DNA of 64,000 bases from contig NZ_AQXQ01000011.1 in the NCBI RefSeq assembly GCF_000376865.1, forward strand, positions 434,001-498,000, written 5' to 3'. Each line of letters begins with the position of its first letter. Position 1 is the stretch's first letter. Made by a program: the position numbers and the translations under genes. Below, one piece after another: positions 43,097 through 63,868 of this stretch. The notes beneath the pieces are model-generated. The model ran no database searches. It had not been told where the DNA came from and was given only the letters and a program-made list of their open reading frames with translations. Source of the DNA: Thioalkalivibrio sp. ALJ7 (GTDB lineage: Bacteria; Pseudomonadota; Gammaproteobacteria; Ectothiorhodospirales; Ectothiorhodospiraceae).

Positions 43097-44047
43097 ATGA
43101 CAAATAAGACGGTGCCAGTAGCAGACGAGCCGGTGGAGACCGCTCCTTCCGCGCCCGACAATACGACTGCGACGGCCCAGGCCACGGATGCCGCGCCTGC
43201 GTCGGAGGAAGTCCCTCGAGCGGGCAGTTCCTCGCTTGGCGGGGCGGGTGACTCGTCTATCGGCGAGCGCCTCAAGGTATTAGGCGGTACCTGGTGGGCA
43301 CGCTACAGCGTCCGGGCGATCTCGGTTCTGGTGCTAATCGGTCTTTGGCATCTGGCGTCGGTCAACGACTTCCGTCTGCTCCTCAACTTCGAGAATGTCC
43401 CCAGACCCGGTGTTGTGGGTGCGGTGCTGCTGGATCTGTTGTCTTCCGACATCTTCTATCGACATGTCGGTGCCAGCGTCGAGCGGGTCGCGATCGCCTT
43501 CGGGTTGGCTACGATCTCCGGCATCGCGCTTGGCGTTTTTATGGGTCGTAACCGTTTTGTGGAGGATGTGTTCTCGCCTTATGTAGAAATCTTCCGGCCC
43601 ATTCCGGCGGTGGCCTGGATTCCGCTGGCGATCCTGATGCTCCCCACAGAACAGAGCAGCATCATCTTTATCACCTTTCTCGGGGCATTTTTTCCGATCG
43701 TGCTGAACACCATGCACGGGGTGGATCAGACGCCCAAGGATCTCGTGCGGGCCGCCCGTGCTTTGGGGGCCTCCAGTACCTCGATCTTGATCCATGTCGT
43801 CCTGCCGGCGGCCTTGCCCAGCATCGTGGCGGGTATGGCGATCGGCATGGGCATCGCATGGTTCTCGCTTCTAGCGGGCGAGATCATCAGTGGCCAGTAC
43901 GGCATCGGCTACTTCACTTGGAGCTCCTACTCACTGGTTCAGTACCCGCAGATCATTGTCGGGATGGTGACGATCGGCCTCCTTGGAACTCTGTCCACGC
44001 TGTTGGTGCGCTATGGCGCCCGGCCGTTCCTGCGCTGGCAGCGTTAG
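43097..44047 (+). CDS. ABC transporter permease, SsuC/TauC type
   Basis: Inner-membrane permease of 316 aa from the nitrate/sulfonate/taurine ABC family. An unusual 60-residue soluble Ala/Thr/Ser-rich N-terminus precedes six TM helices. The SsuC/TauC-like body includes VFSPYVEIFRPIPAVAWIPL and the coupling EAA loop RAARALGASSTSILIHVVLP. The start at 43097 has AAGGGG upstream. The ATPase follows 44 bases on. The matching binding protein is probably the SsuA-like protein at the far end of the island. The substrate is not deducible; sulfonate-like anions are typical for the family. Confidence 0.92.
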   Translation: MTNKTVPVADEPVETAPSAPDNTTATAQATDAAPASEEVPRAGSSSLGGAGDSSIGERLKVLGGTWWARYSVRAISVLVLIGLWHLASVNDFRLLLNFENVPRPGVVGAVLLDLLSSDIFYRHVGASVERVAIAFGLATISGIALGVFMGRNRFVEDVFSPYVEIFRPIPAVAWIPLAILMLPTEQSSIIFITFLGAFFPIVLNTMHGVDQTPKDLVRAARALGASSTSILIHVVLPAALPSIVAGMAIGMGIAWFSLLAGEIISGQYGIGYFTWSSYSLVQYPQIIVGMVTIGLLGTLSTLLVRYGARPFLRWQR

Positions 44048-44091: not shown

Positions 44092-44970
44092 ATGAGAATT
44101 GGAAACCTTTGGGCCTTCGGTGAGGGGCCATCACGCAAGAAATCTGCACCCGGTGGGACGCTGGCGGGTCGCCCCGAGGCGGGCCGAGTCCAGATCTCCG
44201 ATGTGTCCATCGAGTTCAATACCAATGGGCGCCGAAATCTAGCGGTGGATGGCGCGAACCTGGAGATCGAACCGGGCGAATTCATCTGCCTCCTAGGACC
44301 TTCGGGTTGCGGCAAATCGACCCTGATGAATGCGGTGGCCGGATTCGTCGCGCCGACGGCAGGGCGTGTCGAAGTCGATGGCAAACGGGTTCGTGGACCG
44401 GGTCCGGAACGCGGCATGGTGTTCCAGCAGCACTCGTTGTTCCCTTGGAAAAGTGTCCGCAAGAACGTCGCCTTTGGCCCCCGGATGGCCGGGCACTCCA
44501 GAACCGAGTCCGACAGTATCGCGCGCACCTTTCTCGGGATGGTGGGCCTTTCGGCCTATGGCAACCACTTTCCGGCGCAATTGTCCGGGGGTATGCAGCA
44601 GCGGGTCGGCATCGCGCGCGCCCTGGCGAACTACCCCGACGTGTTGCTGATGGATGAGCCGTTTGGGGCGCTGGATGCCCAGACCCGAGCGATGATGCAG
44701 CAAAACCTGGTGGATCTGCGTCAGGAGTTTCACACCACCATCGTGTTCGTTACGCATGACATCGAGGAGGCCGTGTTCCTGGCGGACCGGATCATCGTGA
44801 TGAGCGCCAGTCCGGGACGGTTAATCAAGGATATTCGTGTCGACATCCCGCACCCGCGTACCCACGAGGTGGTGACCGAGCCCCGATTCGTCGAGCTGAA
44901 AAAACAGTGCCTGGACCTGATTCGGGCCGAGACGACACGGGCATTCGAACAGCAGGGGCAGTCGGTCTAG
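44092..44970 (+). CDS. ABC transporter ATPase, SsuB/TauB type
   Basis: A 292-residue ATPase partner of the permease. A 30-residue N-terminal extension is followed by a core with Walker A GPSGCGKST, Q-loop FQQHSLFPWKSVRKNV, signature LSGGMQQRVGIARAL, Walker B VLLMDEPFGALDAQT and the H-loop VTHDIEEAVF. The ATG at 44092 fits the frame and lies after the permease stop; the frame reads further upstream within permease DNA, which I reject. Family: nitrate/sulfonate/bicarbonate ABC. Confidence 0.93.
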   Translation: MRIGNLWAFGEGPSRKKSAPGGTLAGRPEAGRVQISDVSIEFNTNGRRNLAVDGANLEIEPGEFICLLGPSGCGKSTLMNAVAGFVAPTAGRVEVDGKRVRGPGPERGMVFQQHSLFPWKSVRKNVAFGPRMAGHSRTESDSIARTFLGMVGLSAYGNHFPAQLSGGMQQRVGIARALANYPDVLLMDEPFGALDAQTRAMMQQNLVDLRQEFHTTIVFVTHDIEEAVFLADRIIVMSASPGRLIKDIRVDIPHPRTHEVVTEPRFVELKKQCLDLIRAETTRAFEQQGQSV

Positions 44971-45028: not shown

Positions 45029-45820
45029 ATGCTGGATATACACCGCCAAATAGGGCTTGCAAGCACGGTACCTCCGCGTCCCGTTAGCCGGTCCGGCGGA
45101 TCCAGACCGCTCTACGGCTGGGTCCGCGACAGCCTGCGCCGCGAGATCCTTCAGGGTGTGCGCGCGCCAAACGAGCGCCTGGCCACTGAAAAAGAGTTGA
45201 TTGAGGCCTTCGGGGTCAGCCGAATCACGGTGCGTCGAGCGCTTCGCGAGTTGTGTGCCGAAGGCCTGGTGGTGACGGCGCAGGGGCGTGGAATCTTCGT
45301 CGCCCGGCCGAGGGTCAGCCAGGAGCTGCGGCGCATGGAGGCCTTCGGCGAGACGGTGACCAGCCAGATCGGCGAGGCCGATGTGCGCCTGCTTTCCATG
45401 CAGGAGATGACCCCGCCTTCGCGGGTGGCGCGTGAGCTGGGCTTGGCGCCCAACGACTCGGTTACCCGCATTCGCCAGGTGCAGTATTTGCGCTCACAGC
45501 CGGTGATGGTCAGCGAGAGTTTTCTGCCCCTGGCCATCGGTCGGCGGGTATTTAGCCGGGACCTGACGGTGGACACCTTGTCCGTTCTCAAGAATCGCCT
45601 GGGTCTCGGGGTGCGGAGTGCCCGTATCGAAATCGAGGCCTGTCACCCGGAGCCTGAGGTCCAGAAAGCGCTGGCGCTTTCGGTGGAGGCCCCTGTCCTG
45701 AAACTCACCCGTGTCTTTCTCGACCGCAGCGGTCGTGCCTTTGACGTGGAGTGCCTGTCGTTCCGCGAAGACACCTTCAACTGCAAGTTCCGTACGGATC
45801 CCAATGAGGAGTACCTATGA
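45029..45820 (+). CDS. GntR/HutC-family regulator with UTRA domain
   Basis: A 263-residue transcription factor. The N-terminal winged helix is LYGWVRDSLRREILQGVRAP, ATEKELIEAFGVSRITVRRA and LCAEGLVVTAQGRGIFVA. The C-terminal UTRA ligand domain has NDSVTRIRQVQYLRSQPVMV and VLKLTRVFLDRSGRAFDVEC. It sits inside the operon, ATPase upstream, and overlaps the AprA-like gene by 4 bases (ATGA). It should therefore respond to the transported or oxidised compound. It resembles the second GntR at 61329-62126. Confidence 0.93.
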   Translation: MLDIHRQIGLASTVPPRPVSRSGGSRPLYGWVRDSLRREILQGVRAPNERLATEKELIEAFGVSRITVRRALRELCAEGLVVTAQGRGIFVARPRVSQELRRMEAFGETVTSQIGEADVRLLSMQEMTPPSRVARELGLAPNDSVTRIRQVQYLRSQPVMVSESFLPLAIGRRVFSRDLTVDTLSVLKNRLGLGVRSARIEIEACHPEPEVQKALALSVEAPVLKLTRVFLDRSGRAFDVECLSFREDTFNCKFRTDPNEEYL

Positions 45821-47562
45821 AAGTCAACGAAATCAAAACAGTCGAGATGGATGTCCTGGTGATCGGCGGCGGGACCGGCGGGCCGCTGGCGGCGGTGACG
45901 GTCAAGGAGGAAAACCCCGACCTGAGCGTGATGCTGCTGGAAAAGGCCAACGTGAAACGCTCCGGCGCCATCTCCATGGGGATGGATGGCCTGAACAACG
46001 CCATCATCCCGGGCCGGGCCACGCCCGAGCAGTATGTAAAGGAGATCACCACGGCGAATGACGGCATCGTCCATCAGAAGGCGGTCCTGGCCTATGCCGA
46101 GCGTTCCTACGACATGATCCAGAAGCTGGACTCCTGGGGGGTGCACTTCCAGAAGGACGAGACTGGCGATTACGACGTGAAGAAGGTCCATCACATGGGG
46201 AGCTACGTGCTGCCCATGCCCGAGGGCCACAACGTCAAGAAGATCCTGTATCGGCGCCTGCGCCGTAACCGGGTCAAGGTGGAAAATCGCTATCAGGCCA
46301 CCCGCCTGTTGAAGGATCGCGACGGCAAGATCGCCGGGGCCTTCGCGGTGAACACTCGCACCTCCGAGCCGCTGCTGATCCGCGCCAAGGCCGTGATCAT
46401 GGCGACCGGCGCCGCGGGACGCCTGGGCCTGCCGACCTCCGGTTATCTGTACGGCACCTACGAGAACCCGACCAATGTGGGCGAGGGGCATGCGATGGCC
46501 TATCACGCCGGCGCCGACCTGGCGAACCTGGAGTGTTACCAGATCAACCCGTTGCTGAAGGACTACAACGGTCCGGCCTGTGCCTACGTGACCGGCCCGC
46601 TGGGCGGCTACACCGCGAATGCCCAGGGCGAGCGCTTCATCGAGTGCGACTACTGGTCGGGCCAGATGATGCTGGAGTTCTACCGCGAGCTGGAAGGGGG
46701 CAAGGGCCCGGTTTACCTGAAGGTGGATCACCTCGCCGAGGAGACCATCCAGGAGATCGAGACGGTCCTGCATACCAACGAGCGCCCGTCGCGAGAACGC
46801 TTCCATGCCGGGCGCGGTACCAACTATCGCGAGCACATGCTGGAGATGCACATCTCCGAGGTTGGTTTCTGTAGCGGCCACTCGGCTTCCGGGGTGTGGA
46901 TCAACGAACACGGCGAGACCACGGTGCCGGGCCTTTATGCGGCCGGGGACATGGGCTCGGTGCCGCACAGTTACATGCTGGGCGCATTCGTGTACGGCCA
47001 GATCTGCGGCGAGAGCGCGACGCGTTACGTCAGCGACTGGACCGACGCACCACTGGACGAGTCGTTGATTGCGGCGGAACTCGAACGCGTGATGGCACCG
47101 CTGAATGCGGAGGACGGTATTCCTCCGGAGCAGATGGAATACAAGGTGCGCCGTCTGGTGAACGACTACCTGCAGCCGCCCAAGGTCACCAAGAAGATGG
47201 AGATCGGGCTCAGCCGCATCCTGCAGGTGCGCGAGGACCTGGCCAAGCTCCACGCCCGGGATCCCCACGAACTGCTGCGTGCCCTCGAGGTGCATGCGAT
47301 TGTCGACTGCGCCGAGATGGCGGCGCGTGCCTCGATGGCGCGCAAGGAATCCCGCTGGGGGCTGTACCACTACTCCATCGACTACCCCGAGCGCGACGAC
47401 GAGAACTGGTTCTGTCACAGCCGCCTGTACAAGGGCGAGGACGGATCTATGTGCACCGGTACGCGTGCGGTGGACCCCTACATCATCCCGCTGGACGACG
47501 ACGAGCTGTCGGCCTACCAGTCCATGCGGATCGAAAACACCGATGAAGTCCCGGCTGAATAA
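45817..47562 (+). CDS. AprA-like flavoprotein (APS reductase alpha/fumarate reductase family), substrate unknown
   Basis: A 581-residue FAD oxidoreductase. The N-terminal dinucleotide fold is MDVLVIGGGTGGPLAAVTVK with LLEKANVKRSGAISMGMDGL. The C-terminal segment ARDPHELLRALEVHAIVDCA ... ARKESRWGLYHYSIDYPERD is the region shared with the alpha subunit of APS reductase. The protein is shorter than AprA (about 620-660 aa). By eye alignment the AprA residues around the substrate site are not obviously kept: GPACAYVTGPLGGY at the Trp234 region, and no clear match to Arg265. It is therefore probably not an APS reductase. It pairs with the next gene, an AprB-like ferredoxin. Confidence 0.85.
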   Translation: MKVNEIKTVEMDVLVIGGGTGGPLAAVTVKEENPDLSVMLLEKANVKRSGAISMGMDGLNNAIIPGRATPEQYVKEITTANDGIVHQKAVLAYAERSYDMIQKLDSWGVHFQKDETGDYDVKKVHHMGSYVLPMPEGHNVKKILYRRLRRNRVKVENRYQATRLLKDRDGKIAGAFAVNTRTSEPLLIRAKAVIMATGAAGRLGLPTSGYLYGTYENPTNVGEGHAMAYHAGADLANLECYQINPLLKDYNGPACAYVTGPLGGYTANAQGERFIECDYWSGQMMLEFYRELEGGKGPVYLKVDHLAEETIQEIETVLHTNERPSRERFHAGRGTNYREHMLEMHISEVGFCSGHSASGVWINEHGETTVPGLYAAGDMGSVPHSYMLGAFVYGQICGESATRYVSDWTDAPLDESLIAAELERVMAPLNAEDGIPPEQMEYKVRRLVNDYLQPPKVTKKMEIGLSRILQVREDLAKLHARDPHELLRALEVHAIVDCAEMAARASMARKESRWGLYHYSIDYPERDDENWFCHSRLYKGEDGSMCTGTRAVDPYIIPLDDDELSAYQSMRIENTDEVPAE

Positions 47563-47574
47563 AGGGGAAGTGAC

Positions 47575-47808
47575 ATGCCTGTAGCCAACCACAAGACGAC
47601 CGTCCCGGTGGTCGTTGATGAAGAGAAGTGCATCGCCGACAAGGGGTGCCGGGTCTGCATCGACGTCTGCCCGCTGGATGTCCTGCTGATCGACGAGGTC
47701 ACGGGCAAGGCCCACATGCATTACGACGAGTGCTGGTACTGCATGCCTTGCGAGAAGGACTGCCCGACCGACGCAGTCACTGTGAACATTCCGTATCTGC
47801 TGAGCTGA
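47575..47808 (+). CDS. AprB-like two-cluster ferredoxin
   Basis: A 77-residue ferredoxin with two [4Fe-4S] sets, CIADKGCRVCIDVCP and CWYCMPCEKDCP. The second strongly resembles AprB (CWECYSCVKMCP). It lacks the C-terminal tail that wraps AprA in true AprB (about 150 aa). It begins 12 bases after the flavoprotein gene and is probably its electron-transfer subunit. Confidence 0.9.
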   Translation: MPVANHKTTVPVVVDEEKCIADKGCRVCIDVCPLDVLLIDEVTGKAHMHYDECWYCMPCEKDCPTDAVTVNIPYLLS

Positions 47809-47819
47809 AGGTGAACCCG

Positions 47820-48779
47820 ATGAGCGAATATGACGATCCAGAACTGCAGGACATTGCCGACAAGCTGGCCTCCGACGACGTGGAGATGCGCCGCGTCGGG
47901 GTCCTGGCCCTGGTGGACAGTGCAGAGCCCGAAGCGGCCGACCTGTTGACCCAGGCCCTGAAAGACCCCGACCCCTCGGTCCGCCGAGAGGCGGCCAAGG
48001 TCGTCGACGAGTTCGAGTCGGCCGATATTGCCGATGCCCTGCTGGCGGCGCTCAGCGATAGCGATGAGGCGGTACGTAATGCCGCCGCCCACGCCCTGGC
48101 GGACCTGAAAGACACCGACGCGGCCCAGCCGTTGCTGGATGCCCTGAAGGGCAGTGACGACCCATTCGTCATTATCGGTGTGCTCGGGGCACTCAAGCCC
48201 ATGCGGCTCGCCGAGAGCTGCGAACCCGCCCTGGCCATGCTGCAACATTCCGATGCTGGGGTGCGCCGTGAGGCGGTCTCCGTGCTCGGGTGGTTGCGGT
48301 CGCCGGCCAACCTTCCGGTGTTGATGGAGCGAGCCCGCGAGGATTCCGACCCGGATGTTCGGCGGGTGGCGGTGAGTGCCCTTTCGTACGGCGATCCCGA
48401 CTCCGTTGTGGATGCGTTGCTGGGGGGGCTGCGAGATGACAACTGGCAGGTTCGAACCGAGGCGGCCTCCATGATCGGCAAGCTGCGCATGCGAGCCGCA
48501 CTCCAGAGCCTGATCGAGGCGACCCGCGACGCCTTCTGGCAGGTGCGCGAGAAGGCCGTGGAGGCGCTGGGCACCCTGGGTGATCCGAAGGCGGTCGAGG
48601 CGGTGGGTGTTTGCACCGATGACCCGGTGTCGAATCTGCGTAAGGCCGCGGTCGGCGCGCTGGGCGAGATCGGTGACGCTCGGGCCAGCGCGTATGTGGA
48701 AAGCGCCCTGGACGACCCCGACCCCGATGTCCGCAAGACCGCCCTGTGGGCCCAGTCGAAATTGCGCGTGGCGAGCTGA
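47820..48779 (+). CDS. HEAT-repeat (PBS-lyase type) protein
   Basis: A 319-residue protein made of about nine helical repeats of about 31 residues: VRREAAKVVDEFESADIADA, VRNAAAHALADLKDTDAAQP, VRRVAVSALSYGDPDSVVDA, VREKAVEALGTLGDPKAVEA, each with the VRxxAxxAL core. No membrane segment, no cofactor motif beyond single cysteines. HEAT-like proteins act as scaffolds, so it may assemble or dock the iron-sulfur flavoprotein and its electron carriers. That role is inferred only from its place between the ferredoxin genes. The ATG at 47820 is 11 bases after the AprB-like stop. Confidence 0.88.
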   Translation: MSEYDDPELQDIADKLASDDVEMRRVGVLALVDSAEPEAADLLTQALKDPDPSVRREAAKVVDEFESADIADALLAALSDSDEAVRNAAAHALADLKDTDAAQPLLDALKGSDDPFVIIGVLGALKPMRLAESCEPALAMLQHSDAGVRREAVSVLGWLRSPANLPVLMERAREDSDPDVRRVAVSALSYGDPDSVVDALLGGLRDDNWQVRTEAASMIGKLRMRAALQSLIEATRDAFWQVREKAVEALGTLGDPKAVEAVGVCTDDPVSNLRKAAVGALGEIGDARASAYVESALDDPDPDVRKTALWAQSKLRVAS

Positions 48780-48830: not shown

Positions 48831-49154
48831 GTGACCTACGTAGTGAATGAAAACTGTATCCGGTGCAAGTACACCGATTGTGTCGAGGTGTGCCCGGCGG
48901 ACTGCTTCCACGAGGGTCCCAACATGCTGGTGATCGACCCGGTGGAGTGCATCGACTGTGACCTGTGTGTGCCGGAATGTCCGCCCGAGGCAATCCAGCC
49001 AGAAGGCGAGCTGACCGAGGATCAAAAACACCTCCTCGACTTGAATGCCGAGCTGGCGGCTATCTGGCCGGTAATAACTTCTGCGAAAGACCCGCTACCA
49101 GACGCGGAAGAGTGGATCGAGCGCACGGGCAAGCTGGCCGAACTGGAGCGCTGA
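48831..49154 (+). CDS. FdxA-type seven-iron ferredoxin
   Basis: A 107-residue ferredoxin resembling Azotobacter-type 7Fe Fdx[30 protein letters not shown], then [16 protein letters not shown] and an acidic C-terminal tail. It carries a [3Fe-4S] and a [4Fe-4S] cluster in the family. The start is GTG at 48831 with GGAG upstream. Probable carrier between the flavoprotein and FNR or ETF. Confidence 0.92.
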
Positions 49155-49740: not shown

Positions 49741-50517
49741 ATGGCAGCCTGTGACCCACAAGAAGTGCTGAGCGTGCACCACTGGAATGACACGTTGTTC
49801 AGCTTCAAGACCACGCGCGATCCGGGCCTGCGCTTCGAGAACGGTCATTTCGTAATGATCGGCCTCGAGGTGGAGGGCAAGCCCTTGCTGCGGGCCTACA
49901 GCATCGTGAGCCCGAACCACGAGGAATACCTCGAGTTCCTGAGCATCAAGGTTCCGGACGGCCCCTTGACCTCGCGCCTGCAGCACATCAACGAGGGTGA
50001 CCAGCTCCTGGTAAGCCGCAAGGCGACTGGCACGTTGGTGATCCACGATCTGCTGCCGGGCAAGAACCTGTATCTGTTCGGTACGGGTACCGGACTTGCG
50101 CCCTACATGAGCATCATTCGCGACCCGGAGACCTACGAGCGCTTCGAGAAGGTGATCCTGGTCCACGGTGTCCGCTTCAAGAGCGAGCTGGCCTACCAGG
50201 AATACCTGACCGAGGAGCTCCCGAACCACGAATATCTCGGCGAGCTTGCGCAGGAGCAGTTGCTCTACTACCCGACGGTCACGCGCGAGGACTTCGTTCA
50301 TCAGGGCCGCATCACGGACCTCATCGAGAACGGCAAGATGGCCGAAGACCTCGGTCTGCCGCAGCTCGACCCGGAACAGGACCGCGCCATGATCTGTGGC
50401 AGCCCGGCGATGCTCGAGGACCTGTCGAACCTGCTGGATCAGATGGGCTTCACCGCCTCGCCCAAGACGGGTGTACCGGGTGAGTACGTGATCGAGCGGG
50501 CCTTTGTCGAGCAGTAG
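49741..50517 (+). CDS. Ferredoxin--NADP reductase, island paralogue
   Basis: A 258-residue FAD/NADP reductase: LLRAYSIVSPNHEEYLEFLS, IKVPDGPLTSRLQ, STG-type loop as FGTGTGLAPYMSIIRDPETY, and MICGSPAMLEDLSNLLDQMG. Distinct from the fpr at 18794-19534, which has RPYSYVN and a C-terminal Trp; here the C-terminus is IERAFVEQ. A GGGAGG site precedes the ATG. It may couple the island's ferredoxins to NADP(H). Confidence 0.93.
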   Translation: MAACDPQEVLSVHHWNDTLFSFKTTRDPGLRFENGHFVMIGLEVEGKPLLRAYSIVSPNHEEYLEFLSIKVPDGPLTSRLQHINEGDQLLVSRKATGTLVIHDLLPGKNLYLFGTGTGLAPYMSIIRDPETYERFEKVILVHGVRFKSELAYQEYLTEELPNHEYLGELAQEQLLYYPTVTREDFVHQGRITDLIENGKMAEDLGLPQLDPEQDRAMICGSPAMLEDLSNLLDQMGFTASPKTGVPGEYVIERAFVEQ

Positions 50518-55094: not shown

Positions 55095-56087
55095 ATGAAG
55101 ATCCCTGAGTTTGCGCGACTGAACCTGCGAGGCGTTGTGTTGAGCCTTGCATTGGTTGGGGCCATGGCTGGAGTTCCGTCCGCGGCGGCCGACTATCCCG
55201 ACAGCCCGATTTCTGTCTACCTTCCGCTGGGTCCCGGTGGAGCGACTGACAATCTGGCGCGAATCGCCACCAATAAGGCCTCGGAAGAGCTTGGCCAGCG
55301 CTTTTCGATTGAACACCGTCCGGGCGCGGGTGGTTCCGTTGCTTCGAATACCGTGGCGAATGCATCGGCCGATGGCTACACCCTGCTGTTTGCAAACTTC
55401 GCCACCCACGCGGTGACGCCGTCCCTGTTTGCGTCGCTGCCCTACGACCCGATCGAGGACTTCGCGCCGGTGAGCCTGCTGGCCTCCCAGGCTCACCTGG
55501 TTTTGGTACCCACCGATTCCGGTATCGAGTCTCTCGAAGACCTGATCGCAGCGGCTGAAGGCGACACCCTGCGTTTCGCTTCCTCCGGTATCGGCAGTCC
55601 GCTGCACCTGGCGGCTGAATTCTTCGCGAGCACCCTGGGCGTAGAGATGGAGCACGTCCCCTACGAGAGTAGCGCCCCGGCCCTGCAGGATCTGATTGCG
55701 GGTCGCGTCGACTTCATGTTCGACAACATCTCTTCGGGTAAAGGCTTCGTTGAAAGTGGCGACCTGCATGCCGTCATGGTCACGAGCCAGGAGCGCTCCA
55801 CCCTGTTGCCTGACGTGCCGACCGCCATGGAATCGGGTCTGGACGATTTCGAGACCTATGGCTGGTGGGGAATCAAGGCGCCCGCCAATACACCGGATGC
55901 GATCGTCGAGCGGTTGAGTGAGGTTTTTCAGTGGGCCATGAAGTCCGACGATGTGGTCGAGACGCTTGAATCGCAGGGCTTTGTAACGATCGGTTCGACG
56001 GCGAGCGAGTTTGAAACCCATGTTGCCGATGAAATCGCGAAGTGGGCGATCGTCCTCGAAGACGCTGGACTGAAAGGTTCGCAGTAG
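55095..56087 (+). CDS. TctC-type extracytoplasmic solute-binding protein
   Basis: Periplasmic binding protein of the tripartite tricarboxylate transporter (TTT) family, 330 aa. Signal peptide (VVLSLALVGAMAGVPSAAA-D) followed by the TctC core YPDSPISVYLPLGPGGATDN, LGQRFSIEHRPGAGGSVASN and GRVDFMFDNISSGKGFVESG. The AGAGG ribosome site is near 55080. First gene of the operon after the sigma-54 promoter. TTT substrates vary widely, so the ligand is not predictable. Confidence 0.94.
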   Translation: MKIPEFARLNLRGVVLSLALVGAMAGVPSAAADYPDSPISVYLPLGPGGATDNLARIATNKASEELGQRFSIEHRPGAGGSVASNTVANASADGYTLLFANFATHAVTPSLFASLPYDPIEDFAPVSLLASQAHLVLVPTDSGIESLEDLIAAAEGDTLRFASSGIGSPLHLAAEFFASTLGVEMEHVPYESSAPALQDLIAGRVDFMFDNISSGKGFVESGDLHAVMVTSQERSTLLPDVPTAMESGLDDFETYGWWGIKAPANTPDAIVERLSEVFQWAMKSDDVVETLESQGFVTIGSTASEFETHVADEIAKWAIVLEDAGLKGSQ

Positions 56088-56129
56088 CCCCATTCCCCAG
56101 TGACACGGAAAGCACAGGTAAAAACCACC

Positions 56130-56612
56130 ATGCATACCGAAAAGCGCTTGCAGGAATTGGGGATCGATCTGCCGGAACCGCGAACGGTCCCCGCCAACTT
56201 CATTCCCTGCGTGCAGGTACGCGACCTGGTGTGGGTCTCTGGAACGCTCGGCACCGTCAAGGACGAAAGCGGTGCCGACAGGATCCCCAACCCCGGAAAG
56301 CTGGGACGTGAGATCAGTGACGAAGAGGGTTATCAATCGGCGCGTCGCTGCGCCCTGAATCACCTCGCCTGGCTCAAGGAATATCTCGGTGATCTCGACC
56401 GCATTCAGCGGATCGTGAAGATCAATGGGTACGTGAATGGGGTCGAGGGATTTGACCGAGGCCCCTGGGTTGCGGACGGGGCTTCCGATCTTCTGGTCGA
56501 GGTCCTGGGCCCGGAGCGCGGCCAGCACGCCCGGGCCATCGTGGTGGTGGCGGGTCTGGCTTTCCAGGCCCCTATCGAGACCGAAATGGTTGTACAGATC
56601 GATCCTGATTGA
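56130..56612 (+). CDS. RidA/YjgF-family protein
   Basis: A 160-residue member of the RidA (Rid) superfamily: MHTEKRLQELGIDLPEPRTV, CVQVRDLVWVSGTLGT, DEEGYQSARRCALNHLAWLK, VKINGYVNGVEGF and EVLGPERGQHARAIVVVAGL. It carries the Arg of the Rid active site (RGQHAR). RidA proteins hydrolyse reactive enamine/imine intermediates. This suggests that a transported nitrogen compound is broken down here. It starts about 43 bases after tctC. Confidence 0.92.
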   Translation: MHTEKRLQELGIDLPEPRTVPANFIPCVQVRDLVWVSGTLGTVKDESGADRIPNPGKLGREISDEEGYQSARRCALNHLAWLKEYLGDLDRIQRIVKINGYVNGVEGFDRGPWVADGASDLLVEVLGPERGQHARAIVVVAGLAFQAPIETEMVVQIDPD

Positions 56613-56629
56613 TCACGCAGGTAAACGCC

Positions 56630-57232
56630 ATGTTCGATGACGCCATGAGAAGTGAGATTACTGAGCGCCCGAAATTCCAGGCTCGGGCCTATGCGGGTAC
56701 GTACATCGATGTTGCCGTCGTGGCGGAGCGTTTGTGGAACCGGCTGAGCTGGGGCTGGTTGTTCAATACCCATACCGGCTCCGGATTCTTGCTCCTGCTG
56801 GTGTGCGCACCGTTCATTCTCGGCCTGGAAAGGCTTCCGATTGGCACGTTGCAACGGATAGGTCCGGGAATGGTCCCGGGCCTCGTTCTGGCCGTGGCAC
56901 TGCTTATTGCAGGCGGCCTGTTGATATGGGGCATGTTCGGTCCCGGCATCAAGCCTCGGCTGGATGCGTTAGACCTGGACTGGCAGGGGCTGCGCGGGAT
57001 CTTGATGATATCGGGTGGGGTGCTGGCCTTCATGGCTTTGCTACCGAGCCTGGGTCTTGTGATGGCGGCCTTCGTGACGTCACTGATCTCGTCCATCGCG
57101 CGCCCACCTTTCCGTCCCCTGTCGGCGGTGGCGCTTGCCACCTTCAATACGGCGGCGGTCTGGATCGTGTTCGTCGTCCTGCTTGATCTGCACTTTCGCG
57201 CGTTCCCCAGGAACATGCCGTGGATATTCTGA
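56630..57232 (+). CDS. TctB-type small transmembrane subunit
   Basis: A 200-residue small subunit of the TTT transporter. About 40 soluble N-terminal residues precede four TM helices (GFLLLLVCAPFILGLE, MVPGLVLAVALLIAGGLLIW, ILMISGGVLAFMALLP, VALATFNTAAVWIVFVVLLD). I chose the ATG at 56630 (AGGTAA upstream). Overlaps the RidA stop region closely and tctA by 13 bases. Confidence 0.88.
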   Translation: MFDDAMRSEITERPKFQARAYAGTYIDVAVVAERLWNRLSWGWLFNTHTGSGFLLLLVCAPFILGLERLPIGTLQRIGPGMVPGLVLAVALLIAGGLLIWGMFGPGIKPRLDALDLDWQGLRGILMISGGVLAFMALLPSLGLVMAAFVTSLISSIARPPFRPLSAVALATFNTAAVWIVFVVLLDLHFRAFPRNMPWIF

Positions 57233-58746
57233 TCGGCCTTGCCGGTGGTTTCGAAGCGGCCTTCACGCTGCAGAATCTTCTCTATGTTCTTCTCGGAGTC
57301 ACGCTTGGGACGTTCATCGGCGTACTCCCCGGTATCGGTTCGATGGCGGCCATCGCCATGCTCCTGCCGATTACCTTCTACATGCCGCCGGCCAGTGCCC
57401 TGATCCTTCTTGCTGGTGTCTACTACGGCGCCGAGTATGGTGGCTCCATCACGTCGATTCTGCTGAACATCCCGGGTACGCCTTCCTCGGCGGTGACCTG
57501 CCTGGATGGGCACCCGATGGCGCTCTCCGGGCGCGCGGGCGTGGCCCTGTTTATTACGGCAGTGGCTTCTCTGGTGGGGTCTTCGGTTGCGATCTTCTTC
57601 CTGACTTTTGCGGCTCCGGCGCTCGGGCGGTTGGTGCTGAATTTTGGGCCCGCCGAGTACTTTGCGGTGATCCTGTTCGGGCTGGTGGCGACATCGACCA
57701 TCACTAACGGCAGTACGGCGAAGTCACTGGCGATGGTGGCCGTTGGCGTGCTGCTCGGACTGATTGGGATGGACCAGAACTCGGCGGTCGCCCGGTTCAC
57801 GTTTGGCATACCCGAATTGTTCGACGGGATTGACCTGATCGTGTTGGCGATGGGTCTGTTCGGGATCTCCGAGATTATGCGTTCCATGGTCATGCGTTCC
57901 GGGCATCTCGCTACCGCGAAGGTTAGTCTCAAGTCGATGATCCCGACACGCGAGGATCTGCGGGCTTCGGGTTTTCCCATGGTTCGGGGCACGGCCGTTG
58001 GCTCGTTCCTCGGGACGCTCCCCGGTGCCGGCCAGACCATTGCGTCCTTCGTCGCTTACGCGGTGGAGAAACGGGTTTCACGAACCCGGGAACGCTTTGG
58101 GAAGGGCGCGATCGAGGGCATTAGTGCGCCGGAATCGGCCAACAATGCCGCGGCGCTGACCGCCTTCATTCCAACGCTGTCGATGGGCATACCGGGCAGT
58201 GCCACCATGGCTCTAATGCTGGGTGCCCTGATGATTCATGGCATTACGCCGGGCCCGAATTTCGTGACCCAGAACAGCGATATGTTCTGGACGCTGATCG
58301 CCAGTTTCTGGATTGGCAGTTTCCTGCTGATCCTTCTGAACATCCCCTTGATCGGGCTGTGGGTGCGGATTCTCAAGATCCCCTATCAGATGCTCTTTCC
58401 CATGATCATCGTGTTGCTCTGCATTGGCGTTTATAGCGTCAACAACAGCCCCTTTGATGTCGGACTCGCGCTGATGCTGGGCGTGATCGCCGTCTTCCTG
58501 CGGAGCTATGGATTCGAGATGGCGCCTGTGCTGATTGGTTTCATTTTGGGGCCGATGCTGGAGCGGTACTTCCGCCGTTCCATTCAGCTGGGCCGTGGCG
58601 AGGCGGAATACTTTGTTTCCAGTGGGATCAGCATGTTTTTCCTGGCCGCGACGGTCTTGCTGTTGCTCATGGCGGTGGTGGCGGGTGTGCGTAGCGTGCT
58701 TCGGGGCCGCACCGAATCCAGTGCCATTCACTCCTTGAGATCGTAA
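57220..58746 (+). CDS. TctA-type large transmembrane subunit
   Basis: Large permease subunit of the TTT transporter, 508 aa, with about 12 TM segments. LLYVLLGVTLGTFIGVLPGI is the conserved N-terminal TctA motif, with YYGAEYGGSITSILLNIPGT and a repeated GIPGSATMALMLGALMIHGI in the second half. Start is GTG at 57220, with CAGGAA upstream. Completes the transporter with TctC and TctB. Confidence 0.95.
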   Translation: MDILIGLAGGFEAAFTLQNLLYVLLGVTLGTFIGVLPGIGSMAAIAMLLPITFYMPPASALILLAGVYYGAEYGGSITSILLNIPGTPSSAVTCLDGHPMALSGRAGVALFITAVASLVGSSVAIFFLTFAAPALGRLVLNFGPAEYFAVILFGLVATSTITNGSTAKSLAMVAVGVLLGLIGMDQNSAVARFTFGIPELFDGIDLIVLAMGLFGISEIMRSMVMRSGHLATAKVSLKSMIPTREDLRASGFPMVRGTAVGSFLGTLPGAGQTIASFVAYAVEKRVSRTRERFGKGAIEGISAPESANNAAALTAFIPTLSMGIPGSATMALMLGALMIHGITPGPNFVTQNSDMFWTLIASFWIGSFLLILLNIPLIGLWVRILKIPYQMLFPMIIVLLCIGVYSVNNSPFDVGLALMLGVIAVFLRSYGFEMAPVLIGFILGPMLERYFRRSIQLGRGEAEYFVSSGISMFFLAATVLLLLMAVVAGVRSVLRGRTESSAIHSLRS

Positions 58747-58757
58747 AGAGGTAGAGG

Positions 58758-60353
58758 ATGAGAAACTTCGAGCAACCCGGCCGCTCCACGGTGCATGCGA
58801 CCAGCGGCATGGTGGCAACCTCCCATTCGCTCGCCAGTGTCGAAGCGCTGCAGGTTTTGCGTGATGGCGGCAATGCGATGGACGCGGCCCTGGCGGCCTG
58901 CGCTGTGCAGTGCGTAGTCGAGCCAGGGTCAACGGGTATTGGCGGGGACTGCTTTGCAATGATCTGGCCGGCGGGATCCGAACGTCCCGTGGCCTATAAC
59001 GGCTCGGGGCGCGCGCCGGCGGCTGCGAGTCTCGAGCGACTTGCGCACATGGGGCTGGCCGACATCGAGCGGACCTCTGCCCATGCCGTGACGATACCGG
59101 GATCGGTTGAGGCCTGGTGTCGGCTGACGGCCGATCATGGGCGCCTTTCCATGCGTGAAATCCTGGCCCCCGCGATCCGTCTGGCGGGGGATGGGTACGC
59201 CGTCTCGCCACGCGTTCACTGGGACTGGAGCCGCCATCAGGAGTTGCTGCGCACCCATGCACCCACCCGGTCACGTTTCCTGACCGACGACCAGCCTCCT
59301 GCAGTGGGGGCCATTCATCGGCAACCCGAACTAGCCAGAACCCTCGAGCGCATCGCGGAGCAGGGGCCATCCGGCTTTTACGACGGGCCCGTGGCCGAGG
59401 AGATGGTGGCGGTCTTGAGCGAACTGGGCGGGTTCCATTCGCTCGAGGATTTCGCGCTCGCTCGCGGGGAGTATGTCGACCCGATCTCCACGACATTCCA
59501 GGGATACGAGGTCCACGAGTGCCCGCCGAATGGGCAGGGCATTATCGCGCTCATGTTGCTGCAGATGCTGGAGCCACTGGAGGCAGGCTGCGGTGATCCG
59601 CTGGACCCTCAACGCCTCCATTATTTTATCGAGGCTGCCCGTATTGCCTATGCCGCGCGGGATGAGTGGGTCGCCGAACCGGATGCCATGGAAGCCGGTT
59701 TTGGGCAATTGCTCGCGCACTCGTACACGGACCGGATGCGTCAAAGCCTTGATCCCGATTCCGCCGCCTCCGTGCCCGTCCAGCCCTTGTCTCCGGTGGC
59801 GGGGAATACGGTTTGTATCGCCGTGGTGGACCGTGACGGCAATGCGGTCAGCCTGATTAACTCGCTGTTCCTGAATTTTGGTAGCGGCATCCTTACGCCA
59901 CGGCATGGCGTGCTTTTAAACAACCGTGGCCAGGGCTTCAGCATGCAGGCGGGGCACCCGAATCAACTGGATGGCGGGAAGCGTCCGTTGAACACGATTA
60001 TCCCGGGCATGGTGTCGCAAAAGGGCCGGCCGGTGATGCCGTTCGGAGTGATGGGCGGGCACTACCAGTCAGCTGGACACGCGTACATGTTGTCCAACCT
60101 GCTGCGCTTCGGGCTCGATTTGCAGGAGTCCATGGACCTGCCACGTCTGTTCCCGATTCTGGGAGAGGGGATGGTCGAAATCGAGTCCACCTTCCGTCCC
60201 GAAGTGCTGGAGGGTTTGAGGGATCGTGGCCATCGGTTGATATTCCCACCACGTCCGATTGGCGGTTCGCAGGCCATCTGGATTGATCATGCGGCCGGGA
60301 CGCTCGTGGGTGCCTCCGATCACCGCAAGGACGGGTGTGCCCTTGGCTATTAA
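58758..60353 (+). CDS. Gamma-glutamyltransferase-family Ntn hydrolase (cytoplasmic, HpxW-like)
   Basis: A 531-residue member of the GGT family. It self-cleaves before a catalytic Thr, likely Thr351 in VAGNTVCIAVVDRDGNAVS. Other conserved parts: SHSLASVEALQVLRDGGNAM DAA, GIGGDCFAM, TIPGSVEAWCRL, NEY-like NGQGIIALMLLQML, and LNNRGQGF with GGKRPLNTIIPGMV. There is no signal peptide, unlike secreted GGTs acting on glutathione. Its length fits cytoplasmic amidohydrolases such as HpxW (oxamate) or cephalosporin-acylase-like enzymes. It follows tctA in the operon, so it may cleave an amide in the imported compound. Confidence 0.87.
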   Translation: MRNFEQPGRSTVHATSGMVATSHSLASVEALQVLRDGGNAMDAALAACAVQCVVEPGSTGIGGDCFAMIWPAGSERPVAYNGSGRAPAAASLERLAHMGLADIERTSAHAVTIPGSVEAWCRLTADHGRLSMREILAPAIRLAGDGYAVSPRVHWDWSRHQELLRTHAPTRSRFLTDDQPPAVGAIHRQPELARTLERIAEQGPSGFYDGPVAEEMVAVLSELGGFHSLEDFALARGEYVDPISTTFQGYEVHECPPNGQGIIALMLLQMLEPLEAGCGDPLDPQRLHYFIEAARIAYAARDEWVAEPDAMEAGFGQLLAHSYTDRMRQSLDPDSAASVPVQPLSPVAGNTVCIAVVDRDGNAVSLINSLFLNFGSGILTPRHGVLLNNRGQGFSMQAGHPNQLDGGKRPLNTIIPGMVSQKGRPVMPFGVMGGHYQSAGHAYMLSNLLRFGLDLQESMDLPRLFPILGEGMVEIESTFRPEVLEGLRDRGHRLIFPPRPIGGSQAIWIDHAAGTLVGASDHRKDGCALGY

Positions 60354-60420
60354 TCCGAGCGGTTGTGTCGGATGCCTGAGCGGGTGGGGCCACGTGCCCC
60401 GTCGTTCCGGAATCTGATCC

Positions 60421-61239
60421 GTGCCTGATCCCGGTCTGATCGTCTGGATGGCGGTGTTGCTCGTGGTGCTGGCCGGCATCGCCGGCATCTTGTCGGGGCT
60501 CCTGGGAGTGGGCGGGGGAATCGTCCTTGTCCCCGGCCTGTTTCATATCTTTTCGCTGCTGGGTTATTCCAGCGAGCAGCTCATGCAGATCTGCCTGGGG
60601 ACGTCGTTGGCCACCATCGTGGTCACCTCGGCACGATCCACCTTTCTTCATCATGCGCGCGGGGCGGTGGACTGGGCCATCCTTCGGCGCTGGAGCCCCG
60701 GCATCATTGGTGGGGCAATTCTCGGGGTCTGGATCTCGGCGCAGCTGTCGTCCGAGGTGCTGCAGGTGATCTTCGGGGTGCTGGCCCTGTTGATTGCGAT
60801 CCATCTGCTGGTCGGCGACCTGCGGTTTCGGATCATCACGCATCTTCCCGAAGGCGCCGTTATTAGAACGGCACCCCCTGTGATCGGATCGGTGTCCGTG
60901 ATCATGGGCATAGGGGGTGGCACGCTCTCGGTTCCCCTGATGACGGCCCTGGGGACATCCATGCGCCGTGCGGTCGCGATGGCCTCAGGTATGGGGATAT
61001 TGATTGCGGGGCCGGCTGCGCTTGGTTTTATGCTGGTCAACGTCGAGCCGGCCCACCAGCCACCCGGGACCATCGGCGCCGTGAACCTGATCGCGTTTGC
61101 CTGCATCGTCAGCATTGCCTATCTCAGTGCGCCGATCGGAGTGCGTTTGGCTCACGCACTCGATCCCCGGCCACTCAAGAAGGTCTTCGGATTTTTCCTG
61201 CTGCTCGTCGCGCTCAACATGATCCGCGTGAGCATCTAG
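60421..61239 (+). CDS. TauE/SafE-family membrane protein (putative sulfite/organosulfur anion exporter)
   Basis: A 272-residue protein with about eight TM helices: VWMAVLLVVLAGIAGILSGL LGVGGGIVLVPGL and, in the second half, VMGIGGGTLSVPLMTALGTS. These two paired G-rich motifs define the DUF81/TauE-SafE family. Some members export sulfite or sulfoacetate made in sulfonate degradation. Start GTG at 60421. The presence of such an exporter in this island supports a sulfur-containing substrate, but members have other roles too. Confidence 0.9.
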   Translation: MPDPGLIVWMAVLLVVLAGIAGILSGLLGVGGGIVLVPGLFHIFSLLGYSSEQLMQICLGTSLATIVVTSARSTFLHHARGAVDWAILRRWSPGIIGGAILGVWISAQLSSEVLQVIFGVLALLIAIHLLVGDLRFRIITHLPEGAVIRTAPPVIGSVSVIMGIGGGTLSVPLMTALGTSMRRAVAMASGMGILIAGPAALGFMLVNVEPAHQPPGTIGAVNLIAFACIVSIAYLSAPIGVRLAHALDPRPLKKVFGFFLLLVALNMIRVSI

Positions 61240-61328: not shown

Positions 61329-62126
61329 TCAGGATCGATCGATCTCGAATCGATACTTGAACGAGTCGCCACTGAAAAACAGGAACTCGTAGTCGATGGG
61401 CCGTCCGGAGCGATCGTGGGTTAGACGTTCCACCTGTAGAACCGGGTCGGCTTCCGACAGGCCCAATTCCTTCTGTACTTCGCTGTTCGCCAGCCCGGCA
61501 TCGATGCTGATGTTGGCCGCACCCAGCGGGATGCCCGAGAGGTTCTCCAGGATCGGGAAGATATCGCCCGAGAGGTCCTGACTGAACAAGGGGCGCCCCA
61601 CATCCAATGGGAAATAGCTGATCTCCAGTGAAACCGGCACCCGGTTCAGGTAGCGCACCCGCTTCACTTCGACCACCGAGCCGCTTGTTGCACCCCCAAG
61701 GTCGAGTGCGTCGCGCACATTCTTGGGCGGGACCATTTCCTCGATCGAAACGACCCGTGCCGTTGCTTCGTAGCCCTGGGCCGCCATGGCCTCGCCGAAG
61801 CCTTCCAGGCGTCGTACGTTTTGCACCGCCTTCGGCTTGCTGACAAAACTGCCCTTGCCCTGCGAGCTGAAAATCAGGCCTTCGTTGTGCAGGTCACGCA
61901 GTGCCTGGCGAATGGTAATGCGGCTGACGCCGAATCGCCGGGTGAGCTCGCTTTCGGAGGGAAGCTTCTGGTGCGGCTGGTAGGTGCCGTCGAGGATCCG
62001 TTGACGCAACGTTTCCTTGATCTGGACATATAGCGGTTGCGGAGATTCCTGAAGCGTTTGGCGGTCCGGAGTGCTGGATTCCATGGGCGGTCTCGTTCCT
62101 CGGTTCGACTCATCATATCGTGTCAT
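61329..62126 (-). CDS. GntR/HutC-family regulator with UTRA domain (second copy)
   Basis: A 265-residue (or 251 from the ATG at 62084) regulator. The winged helix is QIKETLRQRILDGTYQPHQK, ELTRRFGVSRITIRQALRDL and LIFSSQGKGSFVSKP. The UTRA domain has SGSVVEVKRVRYLNRVPVSL and LGLSEADPVLQVERLTHDRS. Relative of the first GntR at 45029-45820: both share the pattern RMEAFGE/RLEGFGEAM in the same place. It is transcribed away from the binding-protein gene, in the gap after TauE. Start choice between 62126 and 62084 is open, since neither has a strong ribosome site. Confidence 0.9.
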   Translation of the reverse strand: MTRYDESNRGTRPPMESSTPDRQTLQESPQPLYVQIKETLRQRILDGTYQPHQKLPSESELTRRFGVSRITIRQALRDLHNEGLIFSSQGKGSFVSKPKAVQNVRRLEGFGEAMAAQGYEATARVVSIEEMVPPKNVRDALDLGGATSGSVVEVKRVRYLNRVPVSLEISYFPLDVGRPLFSQDLSGDIFPILENLSGIPLGAANISIDAGLANSEVQKELGLSEADPVLQVERLTHDRSGRPIDYEFLFFSGDSFKYRFEIDRS

Positions 62127-62400: not shown

Positions 62401-62518
62401 GCGGATCCGGTAGATCAGTCATGGCCTGTTAGTACAGGCAAGTCCTCACGCCGGGGTCAGTCGGCTGGTCAAACGTTGGATGCGCCATTTTGGCGGACAC
62501 TTTTTTGGGAGAAGAACC

Positions 62519-63868
62519 ATGCGTTGGAAGCCAATTGTTGCCGGTGTAGCAATCGCGGCCTTTTCCGGGGCCGCGGTGGCCGAGACGATCCAGATCCGGG
62601 TCGGGCACCAGAGTCAGGTCACTAATACGGTATCGGGCGGGGTCGTCGTCGAACGCCTGCGTCTTTTCGAGGAACATTTGCCGACGGATGGCCGGTACGA
62701 GGACGTCGATTTTGTCGTCCAGTATGCGGATTTCGACTCCGGTCCGCCGATCACCAACCGAATGATCGCCGGGCAGCTCGAGTTCGGGGTCATGGGTGAC
62801 TACCCGCTCATCGTGAACGGTGCGACCTTCCAGAACACGGGTCGTGCCGAGTCCCTTTTCGTAGCTATGACGGGTTACAACGCCCGTGGGACGGGCAACG
62901 GTATCGTCGTCCCCGTCGATTCCCCTGCGCAGCGGCTGGAAGACCTTGCCGGCAAGCAGCTTTCGACGCCGTTCGGCAGTGCCGCCTGGGGTATGACCCT
63001 GGACGCCCTGAGCCAGGCCGGCATTGCGGATGACGTGCAACTTCGGGATCAGGGGCCACCGGTCGGGGTGGCGAATATCCGCACTGGCAACATCGATGCC
63101 CATGCGAATTTCACGCCCTGGTCCGAGGTCATGGAGTATCGCGGCTTTGGCCGCAAGGTCTTCGATGGCAGCGAGGTTGGCCAGCCGACCTTCCACGGGA
63201 CCGTGGTGCGGGATGACTTCGCGGAAGAGCATCCGCGTGTGGTCGAGGCGTACATCGCGGCGACCATGGAGGCTCAGGAATGGATCATGGAAGACCCCAA
63301 GCGGGCGGCGACCAAGCTGGAAGAGTGGACCACGATCGAGAAAGAGGTCCTGTACCTGTACTTTAGCGAGGGTGGCATTACCTCGGTCGATCCGACCCTG
63401 AAGCCCGAGTGGGTCGATGCGCTCAAGTATCACCACTCCACGTTGCAGCGGGAGCGTTCGGTCCCGGATCTAGACTTTGATCGCTGGGTGGACGACAGCT
63501 TTGTCCGCGCGGTTTACGAGGCTCAGGGTAAGGACTACGAGGAGCAACTAGGCAAGATCACCCGCTCCGAACCGGGCGCAGGCGGGCTTCCGCCGGCCGA
63601 GGTCTGGTTTGCCGAAGAGGGCATCATCAAGTACGACTCCATTGGTGAGATGCTGGCCGCGGTTGAAGAGGTCGAGGAATCCGGTTCCGATGAAGTTCGT
63701 GCGACGTATGTGTACGACCACGGTACGGGCCTGAAGCTGTTCGGCCATGTCGCCTCTTTTGTGGAAACCGACGACGACTACGTCGCCTTCATGCGGGCTG
63801 GTGACGCCGAGGAATATGCCAGTGAGAACGGTGGTTCCACTGTCGAGCTGGCCGTCCTTCGTTACTAG
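62519..63868 (+). CDS. SsuA-like ABC substrate-binding protein with C-terminal NosL-like domain
   Basis: A 449-residue exported protein. Signal peptide IVAGVAIAAFSGAAVA-E, then an SsuA/TauA-type periplasmic-binding fold: IQIRVGHQSQVTNTVSGGVV, NRMIAGQLEFGVMGDYPLIV, GKQLSTPFGSAAWGMTLDAL and VGVANIRTGNIDAHANFTPW. Residues about 356-449 (AEVWFAEEGIIKYDSIGEML, ATYVYDHGTGLKLFGHVASF, GDAEEYASENGGSTV) resemble the C-terminal half of NosL, the copper-binding lipoprotein of nitrous-oxide reductase maturation. The NosL CPVCGM motif is absent. It is likely the binding protein of the ABC permease and ATPase about 18 kb away. I chose the ATG at 62519 for its GGAG site. Confidence 0.88.
   Translation: MRWKPIVAGVAIAAFSGAAVAETIQIRVGHQSQVTNTVSGGVVVERLRLFEEHLPTDGRYEDVDFVVQYADFDSGPPITNRMIAGQLEFGVMGDYPLIVNGATFQNTGRAESLFVAMTGYNARGTGNGIVVPVDSPAQRLEDLAGKQLSTPFGSAAWGMTLDALSQAGIADDVQLRDQGPPVGVANIRTGNIDAHANFTPWSEVMEYRGFGRKVFDGSEVGQPTFHGTVVRDDFAEEHPRVVEAYIAATMEAQEWIMEDPKRAATKLEEWTTIEKEVLYLYFSEGGITSVDPTLKPEWVDALKYHHSTLQRERSVPDLDFDRWVDDSFVRAVYEAQGKDYEEQLGKITRSEPGAGGLPPAEVWFAEEGIIKYDSIGEMLAAVEEVEESGSDEVRATYVYDHGTGLKLFGHVASFVETDDDYVAFMRAGDAEEYASENGGSTVELAVLRY

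Follow-up and report, generated by a model that had tools for sequence, protein, structure and literature searches.

What is a relative of a copper chaperone doing at the end of a protein that captures small molecules for import? The question is posed by one gene in a 64,000-nucleotide stretch of the Thioalkalivibrio sp. ALJ7 genome (contig NZ_AQXQ01000011.1, positions 434,001 to 498,000; hereafter the window, whose own numbering we use). At 62519..63868, on the forward strand, this gene encodes a 449-residue substrate-binding protein fused to a NosL-like domain, as identified from its open reading frame, profile searches and an alignment of homologues. NosL (PF05573) is the Cu(I) chaperone that serves the CuZ centre of nitrous oxide (N2O) reductase, and the original prediction for this locus, made from the DNA letters, held that such a fusion could couple ligand recognition to metal or thiol chemistry in the periplasm. 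Here we present evidence that the tail is indeed a NosL relative, and we argue that it probably serves, in a repurposed and metal-free form, as an accessory module of a (sulfonate-type) SsuA/TauA-like ATP-binding cassette (ABC) binding protein.

Results

The NosL-like domain, delimited by profile and profile-profile comparison, structure models and Foldseek, occupies residues ~357-441 (~85 residues; 63587..63841, forward strand). Taken in isolation, it matches PF05573 with an E-value of 4.5e-5 and 24.3 bits, the gathering score being 24, and the same family matches 14 of 14 isolated homologous domains tested (best E 5.5e-7). The intact protein scores 18.5 bits, under the curated cut-off of 24, and default annotation misses the domain because of it. 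The single-sequence match on the window protein spans only ~26 residues, and a divergent homologue aligns to profile positions 12-125. When a profile of 32 fused homologues was compared with one of 30 gammaproteobacterial NosL sequences by hhalign, the two aligned over 100 columns with a probability of 98.7% and a score of 92.1. By comparison, shuffling the columns of the NosL alignment (59 times) or reversing it (once) gave 60 controls, none of which scored above 21.3; the binding-protein half of the fused homologues reached 13.6.

NosL is reported to be built of two beta-beta-alpha-beta units (PMC6530538). AlphaFold, supplied with alignments built from the window protein and related loci and with the 32-member alignment left out, predicts a tandem beta-beta-alpha-beta arrangement for the isolated domain, in the order strand-strand-helix-strand, then strand-strand-strand-helix-strand. 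The full-length model shows the same order; its predicted local distance difference test (pLDDT) values are 81-89 over most of residues 361-400 and 64-86 over residues 401-440. The best match of the domain-only model in the PDB by Foldseek is 7og7, NosL of Shewanella denitrificans (probability 1.00, template modelling score 0.55), and the other matches listed have probabilities of at most 0.25; a search of the PDB with the sequence profile of the domain alignment returned chance matches only. On these profiles and models, the tail is judged homologous to NosL, as had been proposed: the family match is significant, and the tail is predicted to form a separate fold with NosL as its only confident neighbour in the PDB.

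In NosL, a CXM motif is the presumed Cu(I) ligand, and one further methionine is invariant (PMC6530538). The 449 residues of the window protein include no cysteine, and with it the CXM (CXXCXM) motif is absent, in agreement with the earlier remark that the CPVCGM form is missing; in the alignments, the CXM segment of NosL falls within the linker or before the part that aligns, and a gap takes the place of the Met-containing loop. Across the 32-member alignment, the residues of the domain that are invariant are Trp363 (63605..63607, forward strand), Gly404 and Lys406 (63734..63736, forward strand), Trp363 and Lys406 each being found in 32 of 32 fused homologues, and no His, Met or Cys is conserved. 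Judged by these alignments, the domain has lost the residues of the known Cu(I) site. A profile search of the window genome for standalone NosL, of which nosZ was not a part, gave no match, and standalone NosL is present in one of five genomes holding relatives (Marinobacter only) and absent from the other four. No copper genes stand among the annotated neighbours of the fusion copies. A copper role is unlikely in the window protein, and the proposed coupling to metal chemistry finds no support here.

Eight of the 32 homologues have a pair of cysteines, at alignment columns 408 and 437, and the remaining 24 have neither. The eight are divergent members (L054, L117, L122, L123, L125, L130, L131 and L134), in which one cysteine is a linker residue close to the CXXCXM site (column 408, in the hhalign alignment) and the other belongs to the first helix; a disulfide is plausible in this subclade only. 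Among them, L054 (6888-8336) is lipoprotein-like (LSIIGC) and keeps both cysteines of the domain. The thiol part of the original prediction finds no support in the window protein, which has no cysteine; a Cys pair is confined to another subclade of the fusion family.

The N-terminal half, residues ~22-345 (62582..63553, forward strand), is assigned an SsuA/TauA-type periplasmic binding fold. TIGR01728 (SsuA_fam) matches residues 26-329 with an E-value of 3.6e-31, the Pfam family NMT1_2 matches the same half (E 5.9e-16), and the best PDB matches by sequence are taurine- and sulfonate-binding proteins. Foldseek places SsuA and TauA structures at the top for the model (E ~1e-11), which points to an SsuA-type fold, and Thi5 and PqqT are also among the structural neighbours. 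The SsuA, TauA and SaoX models all score well under their cut-offs, SaoX (NF040735) giving 34.7 bits under a cut-off of 300. The arrangement first proposed, an SsuA-type fold followed by a NosL-like tail, was borne out.

The gene begins with an ATG at 62519 and ends with a stop codon at 63866-63868, both read in the window sequence. It is preceded by a good ribosome-binding site, GGGAGAAG (62507..62514, forward strand), and opens with a predicted signal peptide of the ordinary type comprising residues 1-21 (62519..62581, forward strand; MRWKPIVAGVAIAAFSGAAVA, followed by ET, with cleavage after AVA). Another in-frame ATG is present upstream, at 62480; we prefer 62519 because the homologue from Thioalkalivibrio sp. 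ALE14, which is 92% identical, aligns from that position. These features confirm the coordinates originally assigned to the gene.

A scan of one genome collection recovered 20 relatives of the fused protein. Within the class, 5 of 369 genomes have the full-length fusion, and within the phylum (Pseudomonadota) 20 of 398 do; in all 20 of the latter the match extends to at least position 449 of the 456 in the model. Further, 41 plasmid records, cyanobacteria included, cover at least 80% of the fusion. The spread is patchy: in the class scan, the fusion is absent from one genome of the same genus and two of the same family. Other fused examples were found in ALE14 and widely beyond it, and the fusion is fixed in a family that spans Proteobacteria and Cyanobacteria.

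The fusion is tightly associated with a set of genes for a flavoprotein, a ferredoxin and a HEAT protein and with an ABC permease and ATPase. In most relatives, the fusion gene adjoins genes for the ABC permease and ATPase, the flavoprotein, a 4Fe-4S ferredoxin and the HEAT protein; the flavoprotein family, NF006131, is found in 20 of 20 fusion genomes, and only 21 of the 398 phylum genomes have it at all. NF006131 is annotated as fumarate reductase/succinate dehydrogenase. The closest solved relative of the flavoprotein is 8a8o (240 bits), ahead of AprA and succinate dehydrogenase; 8a8o is the alpha subunit of a 3'-phosphoadenosine 5'-phosphosulfate (PAPS) reductase (PMC10322725), and the annotated name is probably a misnomer for the flavoprotein of the window (45817-47562). 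Genes for arylsulfatase, SulP, sulfonate ABC transport or flavin mononucleotide (FMN)-dependent monooxygenase stand near some copies, and one Paraburkholderia copy keeps the ABC genes but has arylsulfatase and SulP transporter genes in place of the flavoprotein set. The regulators are GntR or Crp in most copies and LysR-type in two cyanobacterial ones. This context points to the import of a sulfur compound rather than to copper or N2O. At L131 (7911-13546), from Paraburkholderia, arylsulfatase and formylglycine-generating enzyme genes lie directly 3' of the ABC genes; at L138 (9196-13222), GntR, flavoprotein, ferredoxin and HEAT genes occur with no fused binding protein or ABC genes nearby.

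The same set is present at 43.1-48.8 kb of the window, complete save for its own binding protein. The genes, all on the forward strand, encode an ABC permease (43097..44047), a likely partner of the fusion that is 61% identical to the permease beside the Marinobacter fusion gene; an ABC ATPase, also a likely partner (44092..44970); a GntR/UTRA regulator, one of two in the window (45029..45820); the NF006131 flavoprotein, which resembles adenosine 5'-phosphosulfate (APS)/PAPS reductase (45817..47562); a 4Fe-4S dicluster ferredoxin (47575..47808); and a HEAT-repeat protein (47820..48779). They are followed by genes for an FdxA-type ferredoxin (48831..49154, start codon inferred; NF045490 for its homologue), a GBBH-like_N (DUF971) protein, a ferredoxin-NADP reductase-like protein (FNR; 49741..50517, from its homologue's match), electron-transfer flavoprotein (ETF)-quinone oxidoreductase (ETF-QO) and ETF, and then by TctABC, RidA, gamma-glutamyltranspeptidase (GGT)-like and TauE genes. 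The binding-protein gene stands at the far end of this series, beside and divergent from the other regulator gene (61329..62126, reverse strand; Pfam GntR and UTRA).

In the window, the set is split by a block at 55095-61239 that holds TctABC, RidA-like, GGT-like and TauE genes. The ALE14 locus (L003) lacks this block, its ETF genes being followed directly by the GntR gene. That locus likewise has no ABC genes beside the binding protein within the stretch examined, whereas in most relatives they adjoin it. A search of the window for operators brought up inverted repeats only upstream of TctC.

Discussion

We propose that the fused protein would act in the periplasm as receptor for an SsuA/TauA-like ABC importer, and that its C-terminal NosL-family domain would have lost its Cu(I) site and then been recruited as a permanent accessory module. 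In the window genome, the receptor would serve the permease and ATPase encoded at 43.1-45.0 kb; its cargo may be a small sulfur anion, sulfonate-like or otherwise, which the cytoplasmic flavoprotein-ferredoxin system would then process. The NosL-like domain could work without copper in docking to the permease, in gating or in covering the ligand, around Trp363 and Lys406. We consider this the probable explanation; several observations weigh against it. The domain-only model has a mean pLDDT of 70, only moderate confidence, and its match to 7og7 has a Foldseek E-value of 0.1. The SsuA_fam score is 108.5 bits and does not reach the curated cut-off of 163.5, so that the ligand is inferred from a weak family similarity. 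Between the presumed ATPase gene and the binding-protein gene lie 17.5 kb of DNA that include TctABC, GGT-like and TauE genes, and a search for an operator or 12-mers common to the two halves of the window set found none. An alternative set of residues could also still bind metal.

That last point leads to one of the competing explanations, in which the domain binds Cu(I) or another metal through non-canonical residues and the receptor either recognises a metal complex or delivers the metal. Kinship with NosL speaks for it, but the protein has no Cys, deletion or replacement has removed the CXM motif and the second conserved Met, the 32-member alignment offers no conserved His, Met or Cys in their stead, the annotated neighbours include no copper genes, and both the window genome and four of five relatives' genomes are without standalone NosL; we regard it as very improbable. 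Somewhat less improbable, though still poorly favoured, is that the domain acts, or once acted, as a thiol module, its two cysteines at NosL-like positions forming a redox switch or disulfide that was secondarily lost in the clade of the window protein. The all-or-none pattern of the pair (both in 8 of 32, neither in 24) and the closeness of column 408 to the CXXCXM site agree with this; against it, neither cysteine occurs in the window protein or in 23 of its 31 relatives, the simplest reading of their co-occurrence is a structural disulfide, the periplasm being oxidising, and the common ancestry of the Cys subclade inflates the count. We give almost no credence to the idea that the tail is an ordinary C-terminal extension of the binding-protein fold that resembles NosL by chance. 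The sub-threshold score of the intact protein and its short single-sequence match could be so explained, but not a profile-profile score of 92 over the whole domain against a control maximum of 21, the coverage of profile positions 12-125 by a divergent homologue, or NosL as the only confident structural neighbour, which already contradict it.

The strongest competitor, albeit one we hold to be clearly the minority case, concerns the cargo, which could be some other anion or organic molecule if the SsuA likeness merely reflects the NMT1/THI5/SsuA/NrtA superfamily. The low SsuA, TauA and SaoX scores, the presence of Thi5 and PqqT among the structural neighbours, and the TctABC and GGT-like hydrolase genes between the halves of the window set would all fit; the closeness of the co-occurring flavoprotein to PAPS reductase (8a8o) and the arylsulfatase, SulP, sulfonate ABC or FMN-dependent monooxygenase genes near some copies argue for sulfur instead.

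The metal-free receptor that we favour shares with NosL a profile over ~100 columns, the tandem beta-beta-alpha-beta order and a periplasmic location. It differs in that the domain is fused behind a binding protein, lacks CXM, CXXC and any Cys, has its Met loop deleted, belongs to a protein that is not a lipoprotein, and occurs in a genome without standalone NosL. With SsuA and TauA (TIGR01728, TIGR01729; sulfonate- and taurine-binding), it has in common the N-terminal fold, the role of ABC receptor and the best PDB matches; by contrast, it is ~100 residues longer, carries the NosL-like tail and scores under the curated family cut-offs. The co-occurring flavoprotein and 4Fe-4S ferredoxin resemble the alpha and beta subunits of APS/PAPS reductase (8a8o, AprA), whereas the flavoprotein is annotated as fumarate reductase/succinate dehydrogenase (NF006131) and has a separate HEAT partner. 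By description, the asfRABC arylsulfonate desulfurisation cluster (PMC4267179) likewise brings together genes for a binding protein, an ABC transporter, a reductase and a ferredoxin, while the fusion sets mostly have GntR or Crp regulators. A stretch of the C. metallidurans CH34 megaplasmid, chosen by the estimated position of AsfA/B, contained no close homologue of the flavoprotein (best 25% identity over ~270 aa), and membership in the asf cluster stays an analogy, that comparison having included no named AsfA sequence.

Each half of the protein belongs to a known family. We found no account of the fixed fusion between them, of the lost copper site or of the tie to the flavoprotein set in the literature searched, which covered few subscription journals. 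Because the NosL fold was kept long after the copper site was lost, a PF05573 match alone does not equal copper binding, and the CXM motif should be checked. More speculatively, and with doubt outweighing confidence, the receptor family may reuse a copper-chaperone fold as a metal-free second recognition or gating domain, with Trp363 and Lys406 replacing Cys and Met, and so define the importer of an undescribed organosulfur pathway, with an APS/PAPS-reductase-like flavoprotein, in Proteobacteria and Cyanobacteria. The analysis identifies a conserved two-domain receptor that databases label merely 'ABC transporter substrate-binding protein', and the fusion gives a handle on the uncharacterised flavoprotein system that travels with it.
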